Virus record (IMG/VR): IMGVR_UViG_3300008107_000014
Location: 1 to 64,000 of that record
Length of the DNA: 64,000 nucleotides
Strand: one strand, 5' to 3'
DNA from: a virus
Positions 1 to 9,422 of the stretch are shown here, piece by piece; the stretch's first letter is position 1, and every line of letters begins with the position of its first letter. Below the pieces are notes generated by a model, which did not search any database, was not told where the DNA came from, and saw only the letters and a list, made by a program, of their open reading frames with translations. Both the position numbers and the translations under genes were made by a program.

Positions 1-2236
1 CTGCTCCGGCGCTATTACTAGTGCCTCCACCGCCCCCGCTACCACCGCCACCAAACTTGCTACCGCTTGGCATTTTAAATTCTGGGACATTAAATGCACC
101 CTTAATATCACCATTCGCTAGCTGTTTTCGATCATTTGCACGTTCTACTTCTTTAGCTTTTTTATCATCTTCAATGGCTTTGATATTAGCTGCCCTAACT
201 CGATCGCGTTCTTCTGCTCTTGCATCTCTGTCTTTTTGTTTTGCTTCGAGTTCTTCTTTTTCTGCTTTAATCTGTTCTCTTGCAGCAGTGATACCATCTC
301 CGCCACCAAAGAATTTGGCAATTTTTTCAGCAATACTTAACCATATATCAACATAATCTAAACCAAACGCAATAAATTTATCACGTAGCCATGCCATCTT
401 ATCGCCTAGCATTTCCATAATAGAACCAAAGGTCCATCCGTTGTCCCGTAGTGCTTTAAACAGAGCAACTACCACAACGATTGCTGCGGTAATTGGTAAG
501 AATGATGCTGCAACTGCAAGCCCTGTAGCAATATACTGTGCCATGTTTGTTAACAATACAGGTATCATAGATAAGAAAGTAGGAATCAAAGTTGCACCAA
601 TGACTGTAGCAACACCTGCTAATACAGGAAGCCAATTATCTACTAAAAAATTTCGAATACTAAGGAATACCGGTAATACATTTTCTTGAATCATTTTACC
701 TAGCCAAGTAAATGCCGGTGTTAGATATTCAATAACTGTCTTCGCAGCAGCTAACAAATTATCAACCAAGTACACAAATGCCGGTATAATTAAATCAGTT
801 ATAACTGCCGCTGCAAACATAACAGCAGGTACTAGATATTCTTGAAAAATTGGAATTACATATTTTTGTACTACTTCGATAAGCATGTTCATCATACTCA
901 TCATTGAATTTAAAACACCGCTGGCATTAGCTAAAACCATTTGAAAAGTATTGCTAATTTCAGCAAGACTCTGTTTCATTGATTCCATAGCAGCAGCTTG
1001 ACCGTCAGTAGTTTTTGTAGCATCGTTTTGAGCTTTTGCTCCGTCTACCAATGCATTCTTGCCAATTCCAGCAGCAGCAGTGAACATATTTGTTTGTTTG
1101 GCAAAGTCTGCACTATATCTACCAATATCTTTAAATTGAGAATTGGCTGCTTTACCTTCTTCGGCTAAAAGATTGTTTAATTTGTTTCTTTCTTCTAAGC
1201 TAATCTGTTCTCCACGTTGCGTCTTTTGAGCAAAGTCTGCCATCATAGCGGCTGATTTTGGCATCATGGACATGAAACGTTGACTTTCTTCAGTGGTTGC
1301 AGAACCAGTGGCCATGATATCTTTAGCTACATCTCTTAAAGGTCCGGGCAATCCAGTGACTGTATTTCTAAACGATTTTGCAACGTCTTCACTCATTCCT
1401 GCCATGGCTGCTTGATATTGCGCATCGGCAGCTAGTTTAGCTTGAGCATCTTCTTGTTGTTTTCTGGACTCTCCAGTTACTTTTGCTAACAAGTCCATTT
1501 CTTTTAGGTACGATTTAGTTCCTTGTACTAATTGAGCGTTTGTCATATTAGTATTCTTACCTCCTTGCATTGCAAGTTTGGTATAGTTTGCTAATCCTTG
1601 ATTAACGTCTTCTGTAGAATATCCAAGGTTATATAAATCTTTACTTGTTGCTCTTAATGTTTTTGTGATATCAGCAAATCGCTTCCCACCGGCTTCTGTG
1701 TTACCACCTAAAAATCTAAGAGCTTCTCCGTTTTTGCTTACCAATGATGCAAAGTCTTTCATCGTCATGCCTGCATTGCTTGCAGCTCCGGCAAATGCAT
1801 TTATACTTCCACCAAAAGTTGCTCCGCTTTGTGCTGCGCCTTGATATGCCGCTGTTGTATTTTCAACAGCTTTGGCAACTGCTGCAAACACTGTGCCCAT
1901 AATAGGTATCTTATCAAATACAGCAGCAGCGCCGGAAAGACTGTCACCCATATTAGCAAGTCTATCGATTACTCCAACTACTCCGTTGCTAAAGTTAACG
2001 ATTGTCTTAGCAGCAGTTCCTAATGATCTTCCAAATTGATTAGCTGCATTGCCGGCAGCACTCATTCCACCGGCGGCTCCCCCTCCAGATCCGCCGCCAC
2101 CTCCACCACCTCCACCGCCGGCTGTATTCCGCTGAACTCCTGTCATTGCTTTAAGGATTGCTTGAAGTGTGGCTTCAGAAGCAGCGTTTTTCGCTTCTAC
2201 GTTGCCTACACCAGGAATGTCAATTGTTACAGCCAT
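1..2236 (-). CDS. Tail tape-measure-like structural protein, 3' end cut by window edge
   Basis: An open frame runs from ATG at 2236 leftwards past base 1 with no stop, so at least 745 residues are present and the C-terminus lies outside the window. The N-terminus (MAVTIDIPGVGNVEAK) is followed by a glycine-rich linker around residues 45-60, long Ala/Gln/Lys-rich helical stretches, then hydrophobic segments encoded at about 480-900 (VVVVIAATIPLFSAAVALG type), a charged coiled-coil-like stretch rich in E, K, R and A at about 130-330, and a second poly-glycine tract near the edge. This build (long helix, membrane-like segments, Gly linkers) is typical of tape-measure proteins, which set tail length and pass DNA into the cell. 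It lies beside the gp26-like gene on the opposite strand; T4 keeps genes 26, 51 and 29 in one cluster. The family call is inferred from composition and context, not from a motif. Another virion protein is possible. Confidence 0.55.
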   Translation of the reverse strand, partial: MAVTIDIPGVGNVEAKNAASEATLQAILKAMTGVQRNTAGGGGGGGGGGSGGGAAGGMSAAGNAANQFGRSLGTAAKTIVNFSNGVVGVIDRLANMGDSLSGAAAVFDKIPIMGTVFAAVAKAVENTTAAYQGAAQSGATFGGSINAFAGAASNAGMTMKDFASLVSKNGEALRFLGGNTEAGGKRFADITKTLRATSKDLYNLGYSTEDVNQGLANYTKLAMQGGKNTNMTNAQLVQGTKSYLKEMDLLAKVTGESRKQQEDAQAKLAADAQYQAAMAGMSEDVAKSFRNTVTGLPGPLRDVAKDIMATGSATTEESQRFMSMMPKSAAMMADFAQKTQRGEQISLEERNKLNNLLAEEGKAANSQFKDIGRYSADFAKQTNMFTAAAGIGKNALVDGAKAQNDATKTTDGQAAAMESMKQSLAEISNTFQMVLANASGVLNSMMSMMNMLIEVVQKYVIPIFQEYLVPAVMFAAAVITDLIIPAFVYLVDNLLAAAKTVIEYLTPAFTWLGKMIQENVLPVFLSIRNFLVDNWLPVLAGVATVIGATLIPTFLSMIPVLLTNMAQYIATGLAVAASFLPITAAIVVVVALFKALRDNGWTFGSIMEMLGDKMAWLRDKFIAFGLDYVDIWLSIAEKIAKFFGGGDGITAAREQIKAEKEELEAKQKDRDARAEERDRVRAANIKAIEDDKKAKEVERANDRKQLANGDIKGAFNVPEFKMPSGSKFGGGGSGGGGGTSNSAGA

Positions 2237-2299: not shown

Positions 2300-3163
2300 A
2301 TGGCAGAAATGCAGAATACAGAAATAAAAGGTACTAACCCGTTAACCCAGTACTTTAGACAACCAAAGATTTGGATCAAACTTCCGTCGGGTGGAAAATT
2401 TTATCCCAATAATGCGTTGGATCACAGTGCTAATGACGAATACCCTGTGTTTGCCATGACCGCTAAAGACGAATTATTATTTAAAACACCAGATGCATTA
2501 CTCAGCGGACAGTCAACAGTTGAAGTTATAAAGAGCTGCATCCCGGCAATTAGAGAACCATGGATGATGCCAAGCATTGATGTTGATGCTGCATTAATTG
2601 CTATTAGATTAGCTACCTACGGTGAAAATATGGAAGTAACAGTTACATGTCCTAGCTGTAAAGAAGACAACGATTACACTATGAATCTACGTGTATGGCT
2701 TGGACAATTTGATAACTTTGAGTACGACGACAGCGTTGACGTTGATCCGTTAACTATTAAAATTAGACCGTATTCATATAGAGAGATTACCAAGGCAAGT
2801 CTTCAAACACTAGAACAACAAAAATTAGTACAAATTGCTACCGACGACACTATTTCAGATGATGAAAAGATTGATAGATTTCAAAAGGGATTTATCAAAC
2901 TTACCGATCTAACTGTAGATCTTATTGCAGGATGCATTACTAGAATTGAAACTCCAGACGGCATTGTATCTGATTTAAAACAAATTAAAGAGTTTATTGA
3001 TAATGCGCCTAAAGATATTTTTGATAAAGTGCATAAACATGTTTCTAAAATTAAACATGAAATCGATCTTAAGCCGCAGGATATGAAGTGTGCTCACTGT
3101 GAGGCAGAGTTCACAACTCCAATCACAATGGATCAATCAAATTTTTTCGCGGTAAGGTCTTAA
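2300..3163 (+). CDS. 26: gp26-like baseplate hub / tail assembly protein
   Basis: This 287-residue protein resembles the T4 gp26 family (Pfam T4_baseplate), which acts in baseplate hub assembly. The N-terminal part carries WIKLPSGGKFYP and FAMTAKDELLFKTPDALLSG, typical of this family. Two CxxC pairs, CPSC at about residue 119 and CAHC at about residue 261, could bind zinc. The ATG at 2300 follows GGAGATAAAA, a usable ribosome site, and a late promoter octamer lies just upstream. It is longer than T4 gp26 (about 208 residues). The zero-frame stop at 3161-3163 is preceded by a canonical -1 slippery heptamer, so a share of ribosomes may continue to 3375 and make a fusion of about 357 residues. 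The family call is fairly firm; the frameshift is inferred from sequence signals. Confidence 0.75.
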   Translation: MAEMQNTEIKGTNPLTQYFRQPKIWIKLPSGGKFYPNNALDHSANDEYPVFAMTAKDELLFKTPDALLSGQSTVEVIKSCIPAIREPWMMPSIDVDAALIAIRLATYGENMEVTVTCPSCKEDNDYTMNLRVWLGQFDNFEYDDSVDVDPLTIKIRPYSYREITKASLQTLEQQKLVQIATDDTISDDEKIDRFQKGFIKLTDLTVDLIAGCITRIETPDGIVSDLKQIKEFIDNAPKDIFDKVHKHVSKIKHEIDLKPQDMKCAHCEAEFTTPITMDQSNFFAVRS

Positions 3164-3187
3164 GTCTTTCTGAGTCGGAGATCTTAC
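3139..3187 (+). promoter_or_regulatory. Probable -1 programmed ribosomal frameshift signal
   Basis: A AAT TTT at 3139-3145 matches the X XXY YYZ heptamer in the zero frame of the gp26-like gene, five codons before its stop. Six bases later an 8-bp stem can form between GTAAGGTC (3152-3159) and GATCTTAC (3180-3187), with one G-U pair. A second hairpin, GCGGACC-AATT-GGACCGC with one mismatch, follows at about 3194-3211. Heptamer, spacer and stem have the spacing of known -1 sites. The -1 frame is open to 3375. Confidence 0.65.
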
Positions 3188-3375
3188 TGTATGCGGACCA
3201 ATTGGACCGCCAGGCTCAGGATATTAAAAAGGATGTACTAAAAATGTGTTGGTACATGCGAGGAATGTCTTACAACGAAGGCATGCACATGAGTTATGAC
3301 GAAAGGCAAATCGTTGGAGAGATAATAAAAGATAATCTTGAAACAACTAAGAAAACAGGGTTACCGTTCTTTTAA
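3142..3375 (+). CDS. Frameshift-dependent C-terminal extension of the gp26-like protein
   Basis: This reading frame (77 codons after the slip site, ending LPFF at the TAA of 3373-3375) is open in the -1 frame relative to the gp26-like gene. Its sequence looks real: SESEILLYADQLDRQAQ and a conserved-looking CWYMRGMSYNEGMHMSYDER motif. The first ATG falls about 32 codons in and would cut off the opening helix, and no ribosome site is obvious, so translation by -1 shift from 3139-3145 is the simplest explanation. Tail assembly chaperones of many tailed phages (lambda G/GT, P2 E/E') are made this way and sit beside the tape-measure gene, as here. In T4, gene 51 neighbours gene 26, and this piece could be the local counterpart, though I cannot show homology. 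The 3' end overlaps the convergent gene at 3372 by four bases. Confidence 0.65.
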   Translation, partial: FFRGKVLSLSESEILLYADQLDRQAQDIKKDVLKMCWYMRGMSYNEGMHMSYDERQIVGEIIKDNLETTKKTGLPFF

Positions 3376-5978: not shown

Positions 5979-6413
5979 CTAGATTTGTTGAAGTTTGATA
6001 ATATGCGAACCGTGTACACGTACTTGAATATGACCATTATAATAGTCATTTGTTTCTAAAACCTTACGTGCAAATTGCTCACGAGCCTCGATGTAGCTGC
6101 ATTCTGATTTGGATTTACAGTAAAAAAGTATTTCTCTGGTGAAGTTTTCTGCGCCTAGTGCCACAACATCTTTGGTTAGTTCAGGGCTAGAACCGTAATA
6201 TTCTTGCCAGTCACTGTCAATTTTGCTGCGGATTTTCTTCTTTTTCTTTGTGCCGTTTTTAAGTTTTACTGTTTTATAGGTGGTTTTGCTGAATTTGGCT
6301 AATTTTTTGCCTATGTATTTGCGCCCAGAGAAATTATTTGTGATAAGATAGACAAAGCCGATACAATCTTCTGGTAGTTCTGTGATAATTGTATTCTTGT
6401 ATAGCCATGTCAT
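5979..6413 (-). CDS. GIY-YIG family putative endonuclease
   Basis: This protein of about 144 residues has a GIY-YIG nuclease signature: FVYLITN at about residue 21 (the GIY element), KYIGKK at about residue 33 (the YIG element), a basic stretch KNGTKKKKKIRSK, and a downstream YIEAREQF that would supply the metal-binding Glu. It resembles Seg-type and other phage GIY-YIG proteins, which are often homing endonucleases that cut DNA. The start could be ATG at 6413 or GTG at 6416; both overlap the upstream stop. It is last in the minus-strand run gp55-gp47-gp46, directly before the structured non-coding region. Because it shares this operon tightly it may be a resident gene and not a recent insertion. 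The nuclease fold call is good; the target is unknown. Confidence 0.7.
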   Translation of the reverse strand: MTWLYKNTIITELPEDCIGFVYLITNNFSGRKYIGKKLAKFSKTTYKTVKLKNGTKKKKKIRSKIDSDWQEYYGSSPELTKDVVALGAENFTREILFYCKSKSECSYIEAREQFARKVLETNDYYNGHIQVRVHGSHIIKLQQI

Positions 6414-6643
6414 CACGTAGTTATCTTGGGGGGTCTGCCTAGTATTCCTTTTCTGGCCTCTTTTCTTGCCTTTTGTTTATCTTGTATTTCGTTGCGCCTT
6501 GTGCTTGCTTCGTTGCGAATTTCGCTGAGCCAATATCTTGCCTTAATTCCTGCCTCTTTTGATTTCTTATACTCAAACCGATCCTGCCACTTAAAATATT
6601 GCTGAAAAGCATAGATCATTTTGTCGTGGCTGTCTGAGCTCAT
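6413..6643 (-). CDS. Small basic protein of unknown function
   Basis: This 76-residue protein is rich in Lys, Arg and Glu and is predicted mostly helical (FQQYFKWQDRFEYKKSKEAG then a run of KQKARKEARK). The C-terminal GRPPKI resembles an AT-hook core and suggests nucleic acid contact. It overlaps gp46 upstream (ATGA at 6640-6643) and the GIY-YIG gene downstream, so it belongs to the recombination operon. I do not recognise a named family. A role with DNA is inferred only from charge and position. Confidence 0.6.
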   Translation of the reverse strand: MSSDSHDKMIYAFQQYFKWQDRFEYKKSKEAGIKARYWLSEIRNEASTRRNEIQDKQKARKEARKGILGRPPKITT

Positions 6644-8415
6644 ACAATATCTACATCGTTTGCATAGCTAGTGAAGCCGTTTTCTTTGACAACACGTAGC
6701 ACTTGATTAACACGATTTGTTAAATCGTCTCTATGACTAATTAAGAAAATGTTTTTATCACGTTCACGGGCCATCTTTTTAAGGATAGCAATTGAACTTT
6801 CAACTCCGCTAGCATCCATGCCGCTGTCTACTAACTCGTCAATAAACAGTAAATTAATACCTTGATACAAGTTTTCCCAAACATCACGGAAAGAAAAACT
6901 TAGACTTAGAATCAAACGATTACGCTCGCCTCTAGATAAGTTATCAAAGTCTAGATCCTGCCCAAGCTGTGTGATCAAAACTGTTAAATCGTTTTGAAAT
7001 TTAACTTGATGCGGTAATCCGATCCGATCTAGATAGTAAGTTAATCGATTGTTTAAGAAACTTAGATTTTGATCGATGATCTTTTTGCGAATAAATGAAT
7101 CTTTGTTAGTCAGCAGCTTTAACAAGAACTCTTGATGGTCTTTTAATCTTGTTAAGTTATTAATATTATCCCAATCAATGACCTGTACTGCTGTATTTTT
7201 AAGTTCGTCTACTTGATCTTGATAAGGATCTGCTTCTGCGGCTTTTGCCTTAGCATCTTTTTCTAAATTATCAAGAGTGTTTTTATGATTTAATGCTTGT
7301 TCTAAAGTATCGTAGGTAACTTTAGGACAATCTGCTAGTGGCCCTAGTAAAGTTAATGCTTCTTTAAACTCTGCAAGTTCTTGTTCAAAGCCTGCAACTG
7401 CTTGACTGCTTTCGTTGCGTTGTGTTTGTTTAGCAGAAACCATTGTTTCGTGCTTCTCGTCATGCACATCTTGTCCACAACTATGGCACTTGTGTTCTGC
7501 AAGCAATAAAATTTCTTGATCTAGCTTGTCTAAAACACGTTGTTCTTTATCTAATGTAGTTTGTTGTCTAGCAATCAATGAAGTAATGCTGTCTACATCT
7601 TTACGATGCTTGTTCCACTCAATTAATGCACGTTGATCTGCAATCTCTTTATCGATGTCAATGCTTTGCATTGTCTTGATGTCTTTGTTTAGACGTGCAA
7701 CAGCTTCACTATTAGTCTGCAACCATAGTTTTTGCTTGCGTTCAAGTGAGTCGATGCTAAGTTGAATCTTGTCGTTGCTTACTTTGATTGTTTCAATCTT
7801 GGTATTTTCTTGTGAGATAAGATCTTTGTTGATACGGATGCCTTCTTTAAGTGCATCTGCTTTCTCACTAAGGATAGTAATACCTAATAGCTGTTCGATG
7901 ATAGCACGTTGATCTGCTGCCTTCATAGACAAGAATGGTTCGGTGTATGTGTTCAACGCAAGAATATGTTTGAACATATCATGTGTCATTCCGAATACTT
8001 CTTCAATTGCTTTCTGCGTTTCACGTGAATCGCCTTGGCTTTCGTCTTGATCTTGTGCTTTTAATTCTAAACCGTTGATTGTAAACTTCAATAAGTTGGG
8101 TTTACGACCGCGTTCAATCTTATAATCGATGCCGTCCTTTTCAAAGCTCATAGTAACTAGCATGGCTTTGCTGTTGATCTTATTAACTAAGTTGTCTTTC
8201 TTAATGTTTGTTAATGCATTGCCGTAGATAGCATAGCTAAGACCGTTAATAATAGTAGTCTTACCGGTGCCGTTGCGTGATCCGCTGCCATCTCCGCCTA
8301 GGTCTAAGTTCTCACCTAGTACTAAAGTTAAATGTCCTTTGTCAAAACTAACAGCCTGGGTTTGATTACCCACGCTCATAAAGTTCTTAACAGTTAAATT
8401 CTTAATTTTGATCAT
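6640..8415 (-). CDS. 46: gp46-like SbcC/Rad50-type recombination endonuclease subunit
   Basis: This 591-residue ATPase pairs with gp47 to process DNA ends for recombination-dependent replication and host DNA breakdown. The Walker A motif is GTGKTT around K52. Long coiled-coil arms flank a zinc-hook CHSCG near residue 308. The ABC signature LSRGERNRL, the Walker B strand LLFIDE and the switch-region LISHRDD are near the C-terminus. Length is close to T4 gp46 (560 residues). The start overlaps the gp47 stop by ATGA at 8412-8415, so translation is coupled. Nothing is missing from the catalytic set that I can see. Confidence 0.95.
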   Translation of the reverse strand: MIKIKNLTVKNFMSVGNQTQAVSFDKGHLTLVLGENLDLGGDGSGSRNGTGKTTIINGLSYAIYGNALTNIKKDNLVNKINSKAMLVTMSFEKDGIDYKIERGRKPNLLKFTINGLELKAQDQDESQGDSRETQKAIEEVFGMTHDMFKHILALNTYTEPFLSMKAADQRAIIEQLLGITILSEKADALKEGIRINKDLISQENTKIETIKVSNDKIQLSIDSLERKQKLWLQTNSEAVARLNKDIKTMQSIDIDKEIADQRALIEWNKHRKDVDSITSLIARQQTTLDKEQRVLDKLDQEILLLAEHKCHSCGQDVHDEKHETMVSAKQTQRNESSQAVAGFEQELAEFKEALTLLGPLADCPKVTYDTLEQALNHKNTLDNLEKDAKAKAAEADPYQDQVDELKNTAVQVIDWDNINNLTRLKDHQEFLLKLLTNKDSFIRKKIIDQNLSFLNNRLTYYLDRIGLPHQVKFQNDLTVLITQLGQDLDFDNLSRGERNRLILSLSFSFRDVWENLYQGINLLFIDELVDSGMDASGVESSIAILKKMARERDKNIFLISHRDDLTNRVNQVLRVVKENGFTSYANDVDIV

Positions 8416-9422
8416 AGGTTATGGTAAATGTCCAGCAATAGGTTCTTGTCAAAGGCATCGGATTCGATGGTTGTTAGTTGATTAACAACAATAGTGTCAA
8501 CACTTTCAAATGTAATGTCGCCTACAAATGCGTTATCACCTACTTCTTCTTTTTGCGGAATTAACATCAGCTCTCTTAAGCTGAATTGTTTCATAAATGT
8601 TTCTTTGATAAAGTTTGCTTCTTCAAAGCTTAGTGGCAAATCAATGTTTACCCTGGCATGCATCTTATCTCGCAGATGCTTTTCTGGTTCGTCGAGTAGC
8701 TGACTTAGTTTGAATACTCTAAATACAGGTTGATCCGGCCAAGTCTTGTATTGTGGCTTACCTCCCCACTCTAAGATCATCATACCACGATCGTCGTCGC
8801 CTGCATCTGCGTAGTTATGTGGGAAAGCATTGCCCATATAGACAATGTTTCCGCGTTCTTGACGCTTATGGAAGTGTCCAGTAAACACGTATTCTTGATT
8901 TACAAAGTGATTACTTTGTAATTGTCCGTGATCGGGCATTTGTACCATGGCATTCATATAGAAACTAGGTAGTTCTAAGTGTCCAAAGATATAACGACTC
9001 TTAAGTTTTTCAACATGTTTCCACTCGTCAGCAATCAACCAAGGCATGATAGTTACATCGCCTTCGGTAATTGCTTCGTTGACTAGAACAATGTTTGGAA
9101 ATAATCGTCCAAACTCTAAACTGTGGATCTCACGTTTGTCTTTGTAAAACATATCGTGATTGCCGGTGATGACATAGACTTTCTCAAAGCTAGCATTGAG
9201 TCGTTCTAGATTAGATACTGTATAATTCATAGTACTCACGTCAGTGGTACTACGGTTGTGATGCCAGTCACCTAAGAAGATGCAAGTTTCTGCGCCTTCT
9301 GCTTTAGCAGTATCACAAAACCATTTAACAAAGTCTTCGCAATCTTGGTTATGAATTCTACTACCGCTTTTAAGTCCAAAGTGTATATCGGTAAAACAGG
9401 CTACTTTTTTAAATAATGACAT
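8412..9422 (-). CDS. 47: gp47-like SbcD/Mre11-type recombination nuclease subunit
   Basis: This 336-residue metallophosphoesterase is the nuclease partner of gp46. Phosphoesterase motifs occur in order: FTDIHFG near residue 10 (D and H ligands), GDWHHN near residue 51, TGNHDM near residue 86, and GHFHKR near residue 182. Length matches T4 gp47 (339 residues). The ATG at 9422 follows a strong AAAAGGAGATCAAT ribosome site. It follows the gp55-like fragment, as in T4 where genes 55, 47 and 46 are neighbours. Confidence 0.95.
   Translation of the reverse strand: MSLFKKVACFTDIHFGLKSGSRIHNQDCEDFVKWFCDTAKAEGAETCIFLGDWHHNRSTTDVSTMNYTVSNLERLNASFEKVYVITGNHDMFYKDKREIHSLEFGRLFPNIVLVNEAITEGDVTIMPWLIADEWKHVEKLKSRYIFGHLELPSFYMNAMVQMPDHGQLQSNHFVNQEYVFTGHFHKRQERGNIVYMGNAFPHNYADAGDDDRGMMILEWGGKPQYKTWPDQPVFRVFKLSQLLDEPEKHLRDKMHARVNIDLPLSFEEANFIKETFMKQFSLRELMLIPQKEEVGDNAFVGDITFESVDTIVVNQLTTIESDAFDKNLLLDIYHNL

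Follow-up and report, generated by a model that had tools for sequence, protein, structure and literature searches.

The gp26-like gene of an uncultured T4-type phage very likely makes two tail assembly chaperones, a short form (TAC-N) and a long form (TAC-NC), by programmed -1 frameshifting. The case is built on sequence, namely a slippery site, the relation of the two frames, covariation in a downstream stem, coding selection in the -1 frame and the absence of a conserved start for that frame; frameshifting in vivo, and its rate, are inferred from these features. The gene lies in the window, by which we mean the whole stretch of DNA analyzed, i.e., the initial 64 kb of an IMG/VR record 115 kb long. 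The features of the locus are as follows.

1 to 2236, minus strand: tape-measure-like neighbor, divergent from the gp26-like gene and running off the window
2300 to 3163, plus strand: gp26-like gene, predicted short tail assembly chaperone (TAC-N), 287 aa (PF12322 T4_baseplate, phrog_150)
3139 to 3145, plus strand: slippery heptamer A AAT TTT (from sequence; 48 of 55 distinct relatives)
3142 to 3148, plus strand: second slippery heptamer T TTT TTC, overlapping the first and unchanged in all 55 distinct relatives (core of the slip site)
3142 to 3375, plus strand: predicted -1-frame extension (TAC-C domain), FFRGKVLSL...TGLPFF, 77 codons plus stop (conservation, coding pattern, structure model)
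3152 to 3159, plus strand: 5' arm of the predicted stimulatory stem, GTAAGGTC (compensatory changes)
3161 to 3163, plus strand: 0-frame stop TAA, inside the stem loop
3180 to 3187, plus strand: 3' arm of the predicted stimulatory stem, GATCTTAC (compensatory changes, folding)

The open reading frame at 2300-3163 begins with ATG, ends with TAA and encodes a protein with two Cys-X2-Cys pairs that matches PF12322 T4_baseplate (E 9.8e-21; 74.9 bits, with a curated cut-off of 24.5) and phrog_150, "baseplate hub" (E 5.2e-23). When the structure model of this N-terminal part (N-part) was subjected to fold comparison, mainly T4-type baseplate hub proteins were matched. The placement of a gp26-like gene beside a tape-measure-like gene, as originally predicted, was borne out: the two are adjacent and divergent, with a weak tape measure profile match of the neighbor in the window (phrog_167, E 0.0033) and stronger ones in relatives, i.e., L094 (E 1.1e-6) and HTVC008M (phrog_58, E 8.4e-12). 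In HTVC008M a small gene separates the gp26-like gene from the tape-measure gene, and in one relative a portal gene of T4 type adjoins the tape-measure-like gene. The part of the genome examined holds a single copy of the N-part and a single copy of the C-terminal part (C-part). Elsewhere in the window, AAA/SMC and metallophosphoesterase matches at 6640-9422 mark gp46/gp47-like genes, and this pair is adjoined by a segE-like GIY-YIG homing endonuclease gene (5979-6416, minus strand; PF19835, E 4.8e-32). Contigs L094, L095 and L096 are listed under metagenome-assembled genomes of Rickettsiales, Pacearchaeota and Neomarinimicrobiota, respectively; because all three carry the phage gene pair, they probably stem from phages and were binned with those genomes.

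A search of IMG/VR with the -1-frame peptide found 472 related stretches, 80 of which were kept; 55 distinct uncultured junctions were compared. The elements of the predicted signal were all found in the window sequence: A AAT TTT lies five codons (TTC GCG GTA AGG TCT) before the TAA at 3161-3163, with a 6-base spacer and an 8-bp stem behind it. Both A AAT TTT and the overlapping T TTT TTC are in phase, the 0-frame codons of the former being AAT TTT, and a slip at either heptamer yields the same product, ...QSNFFRGK. The relatives shifted the emphasis between the two, since A AAT TTT, the heptamer first proposed, is present in 48 of the 55 junctions, but the deeply conserved core is T TTT TTC, kept in all 55 despite divergence of gp26 to 45-60% identity. 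The seven junctions without A AAT TTT have GGA, GAC, AAC or TAA before the T run and still retain T TTT TTC, which identifies the latter as the core. The distance from the slip site to the 0-frame stop is also the same in 52 of 55 relatives.

Codon choice at the slip site is frozen, with Asn as AAT in 49/49, Ser as TCA in 32/34, and the two Phe codons as TTT in 55/55 and TTC in 55/55; among background codons, TTT occurs 464 times and TTC 107 times (TTC about 19% of Phe), and TCA makes up about 40% of TCN. This freezing is partly explained by the reading of FF in both frames, which itself entails translation of both frames through the slip site. In one relative (L050) a -1-frame TAA directly precedes TTTTTT, so that the slip site is the only possible entry into its -1 frame. 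By itself the 10-mer AAATTTTTTC is not beyond chance in the A+T-rich window (1 found, 0.98 expected), and the case therefore rests on conservation. The predicted tryptic junction peptide of the window's protein is CAHCEAEFTTPITMDQSNFFR if shifted and CAHCEAEFTTPITMDQSNFFAVR if unshifted.

The T run could instead act on RNA polymerase, whose slippage would produce transcripts with an altered number of U residues and so fuse the frames. The conserved T6 run, which is longer in phiM12, Cr30 and HTVC008M, fits such a mechanism. Efficient polymerase slippage is known from runs of about 9, however, and six bases fall short of this; moreover, polymerase slippage needs neither a covarying stem, nor a conserved AAA before the T run, nor the X XXY YYZ phase. 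We regard this explanation as very improbable.

As had been claimed, the -1 frame runs open for 77 codons beyond the slip site, as far as the TAA at 3373-3375, and has no start of its own. Among the 54 ungapped relatives it is stop-free in all 54, the other two frames being always closed, and wherever a locus showed both parts, they were offset by -1. After the 0-frame stop, differences at the three codon positions of the -1 frame number 25232, 14799 and 50802, respectively, a coding substitution pattern that agrees with the earlier impression of a protein-like frame; as judged from sequence, the -1 frame is under purifying, protein-coding selection. Conserved in its product are FFR at the junction, which is invariant, and the motifs WYMRG and NLETTKK. 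AlphaFold placed the beginning of a confident helical domain at the junction (mean pLDDT 92.6). Sequence searches of Pfam, PHROG and PDB with the window's C-domain returned nothing useful, and neither Pfam nor PHROGs matched it directly to a tail chaperone. Its fold comparison gave no match in the PDB and only weak viral matches, one of them (E 1.1) to the "Tape measure chaperone" of Citrobacter phage Moogle. Similarity to the cyanophage/T4 C-domain is modest (hhalign E 4e-5, 70%, over 33 columns).

These data also bear on the idea that the junction is an assembly or sequencing error, or a decayed gene. The junction is indeed a homopolymer, and a near-identical contig has a deletion here, but over 50 different contigs, drawn from many metagenomes, share the same -1 junction with 13 phages in culture, and the C-part frame is under purifying selection. 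Homopolymer error or decay was thus refuted by independent genomes, and we give it next to no weight. The contig with the deletion, L002, is about 99% identical to the window and lacks window positions 3173-3363, i.e., 191 nt comprising most of the -1 frame; no repeat is evident at its deletion junction (L002 4856-4874), and misassembly and a defective variant are both possible explanations.

Alternatively, the downstream frame might be a gene in its own right, with ribosomes re-initiating by translational coupling close to the gp26 stop; databases annotate it as such ("gp51" or hypothetical). An ATG does lie a few codons past the slip site in P-SSM2, Phosso, Atu_ph07 and KVP40, where annotators place a separate coding sequence. 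In the window, the -1 frame has no ATG, GTG or TTG ahead of the slip site; its earliest candidate is TTG at 3202, 20 codons in. An upstream start is likewise absent in 43 of the 55 junctions of this lineage, and the first downstream candidates vary and come after the conserved FFR..L; a conserved separate start for the -1 frame was accordingly rejected. Nor does an ATG occur nearby in the C-part frame of Syn9, HTVC008M or PA5oct, and re-initiation leaves both the invariant TTTTTTC and the stem unexplained. As the sole source of the C-part, re-initiation is therefore improbable; it may add a free C-domain in some cultured relatives with a close ATG, but this is unlikely in the window's lineage.

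The putative downstream stimulator of frameshifting is an 8-bp stem with compensatory changes. In the window the stem contains one G-U pair and closes a 20-nt loop, and folding of positions 3146-3200 gave -18.7 kcal/mol (z -2.6). The spacer is 6 nt from A AAT TTT (TTCGCG, 3146-3151) and 3 nt from T TTT TTC; the latter is short for a stimulator, and 6 nt is the better distance. Conservation of the heptamer and of the stem among relatives had been proposed as a check on the frameshift, and the 55 junctions upheld it on both counts, with an invariant T TTT TTC and compensatory changes in the stem. Pairing was counted directly between columns 11-18 and 39-46 of alignment A1: 91.5% of cells are paired versus 82.9% in shuffles, double-changed cells number 30 versus 6.7, and the observed score was reached by none of 500 shuffles. 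When the partner arm was slid by 1-3 columns, pairing fell to 26-51%. Parsimony on a tree of the N-part requires at least 11 pair-to-pair double-change events, and examples of arm pairs from relatives are GTAAGATC/GATCTTAC, GTAAAATC/GATTTTAC, GCAAGATC/GATCTTGC and GCAAAATC/GATTTTGC. The inner five pairs almost never fail, and the outer pairs fail in some divergent members. A consensus fold by RNAalifold (51-column alignment, 55 sequences) predicted no pairs. Both frames are coding in the part of the stem region before the 0-frame stop and only the -1 frame after it. For the 60 nt after the slip site in cultured relatives, z scores were -5.0 in S-PM2, -3.2 in PA5oct, -3.0 in Atu_ph07 and -2.8 in P-SSM2, with weaker support in the others, several near zero. 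Because folding support varies in this way, the stem is not universal, and it is lineage-specific in form. Altogether, the 472 related stretches, the slip site in 55 of 55 junctions and the covarying stem support the original reading of the locus as a programmed frameshift.

The same -1 junction was found in 13 cultured phages. The jumbo phages Phosso, Atu_ph07, PA5oct, PBECO4 and Vibrio 2.275 carry ATTTTTTC or GTTTTTTC; the 0 frame then closes within one to a few codons, and the C-part lies in the -1 frame. Their C-part is annotated as a separate hypothetical gene, as a truncated call, or not at all. Profile searches placed a TTT TTC junction in the cyanophages P-SSM2, S-PM2 and Syn9 and a TTT TTT junction in the pelagiphage HTVC008M; KVP40 and W-14 likewise have TTT TTC, and Cr30 and phiM12 have TTT TTT. 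Two of the cyanophage/pelagiphage records were inspected for annotation, and both name the C-part as a baseplate hub assembly catalyst ("gp51"). The ackermannvirus Vi01 (a Salmonella phage) has a gp26-like gene with its C-part in the -1 frame and no canonical heptamer (GAA ATT TTC ATT TAA).

In T4 and RB43 the slip site is absent, the -1 frame is closed, and a separate long paralogue, gp51, is present instead. T4 gp51 consists of the N-part and C-part in one frame, and T4 gp26 of the N-part alone; both match PF12322 (E 4e-52 and 9e-64, respectively), and the tail of gp51 aligns with the cyanophage C-part (phrog_634). T4 genes 26 and 51, paralogues of one Pfam family, lie on opposite strands (L097, 5803-7229). 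T4 gp26 ends in GAG TTC TTT GAG, with a terminal FF as at the slip site but encoded by TTC TTT. We consider it reasonably likely that the T4 superfamily originally made its two tail chaperones by a -1 frameshift at T TTT TTY and that T4 and its close kin replaced this device by duplication (gp26/gp51). The frameshift would then have been kept in cyanophages, pelagiphages, KVP40, and rhizobial and jumbo phages, and the covarying hairpin of the window's lineage would have been kept under a double coding constraint.

By programmed frameshifting, most ribosomes would terminate at 3161 and release the short TAC-N of 287 aa. A minority, on reaching A AAU UUU UUC, would be held up by the hairpin that follows it, shift by one base in the 5' direction along the U run and continue in the -1 frame as far as 3375; their product would be a TAC-NC of about 360 aa with a helical C-terminal domain. 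The lambda G/GT model and the tape-measure-like gene next door are the grounds for proposing chaperone roles. If the two forms act as gpG and gpGT do in lambda, the tape measure protein would be coated by the short one, and tail tube subunits would be recruited by the long one, which would be rare. The lambda system is alike in having a short protein and a -1-shifted longer form, a slip site close to the 3' end of the short gene, and a phage tail gene located beside a tape-measure-like gene. It differs in that no sequence relation was seen, the gene here belonging to the PF12322 family with its Cys-X2-Cys pairs, and in that the tape measure gene lies here on the opposite strand, not directly downstream. 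T4 gp26/gp51 (PF12322, phrog_150) share a homologous N-part, have the C-domain in gp51 and exist in short and long forms, but in T4 and RB43 these are two genes and the slip site is gone. The gp26/"gp51" pair of cyanophages and HTVC008M (phrog_150, phrog_634) has T TTT TTC or T TTT TTT with the C-part in the -1 frame; unlike the window's, it is annotated as two genes, and its C-domain has diverged and is only distantly similar to that of the window.

Xu, Hendrix and Duda reportedly described in 2004 a conserved -1 frameshift in the tail assembly chaperones of tailed phages. A 2016 review calls this frameshift conserved "except T4" (PMC5009743). Vladimirov, Gautam and Davidson (2022, Virology 566:9) identified T4-like tail assembly chaperones in a paper whose title favors another mechanism; where the PRFect paper cites it, "some T4-like phages" are said to have a short gene and a long fused gene (PMC10885494), and the phage Adele paper cites it for poly-T signals of frameshifting in the TAC-N genes of T4-like phages (PMC12846349). 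The original prediction had held that such a signal in T4-type gp26 is not well described; given the 2022 paper and the later one crediting it with poly-T signals, this was only partly right. The TAC gene of Vandenendeviridae/Andersonviridae, represented by Adele, likewise has a poly-T site near the end of TAC-N, conserved across genera, and a -1 frame open for more than 200 bp; its core is GTTTTT instead of the TTTTTTC found here, and the passages on the Adele gene mention no covarying stem (PMC12846349). A frameshifted tail chaperone is thus a known kind of element, and its presence in T4-like phages is probably known as well; new, as far as checked, are the covariation in the stem and the breadth of sampling among uncultured phages and jumbo phages.

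If the frameshift extends across the wider T4 family, annotations that call "gp51" a separate gene would be corrected, and KVP40, S-PM2 and P-SSM2 would be cultured systems for measuring the ratio of short to long form and what it does to tail assembly. T4 is the textbook contractile-tail phage, yet it is listed as an exception to the conserved tail-chaperone frameshift; a frameshift across the wider T4 family would make its gp26/gp51 pair a derived state.
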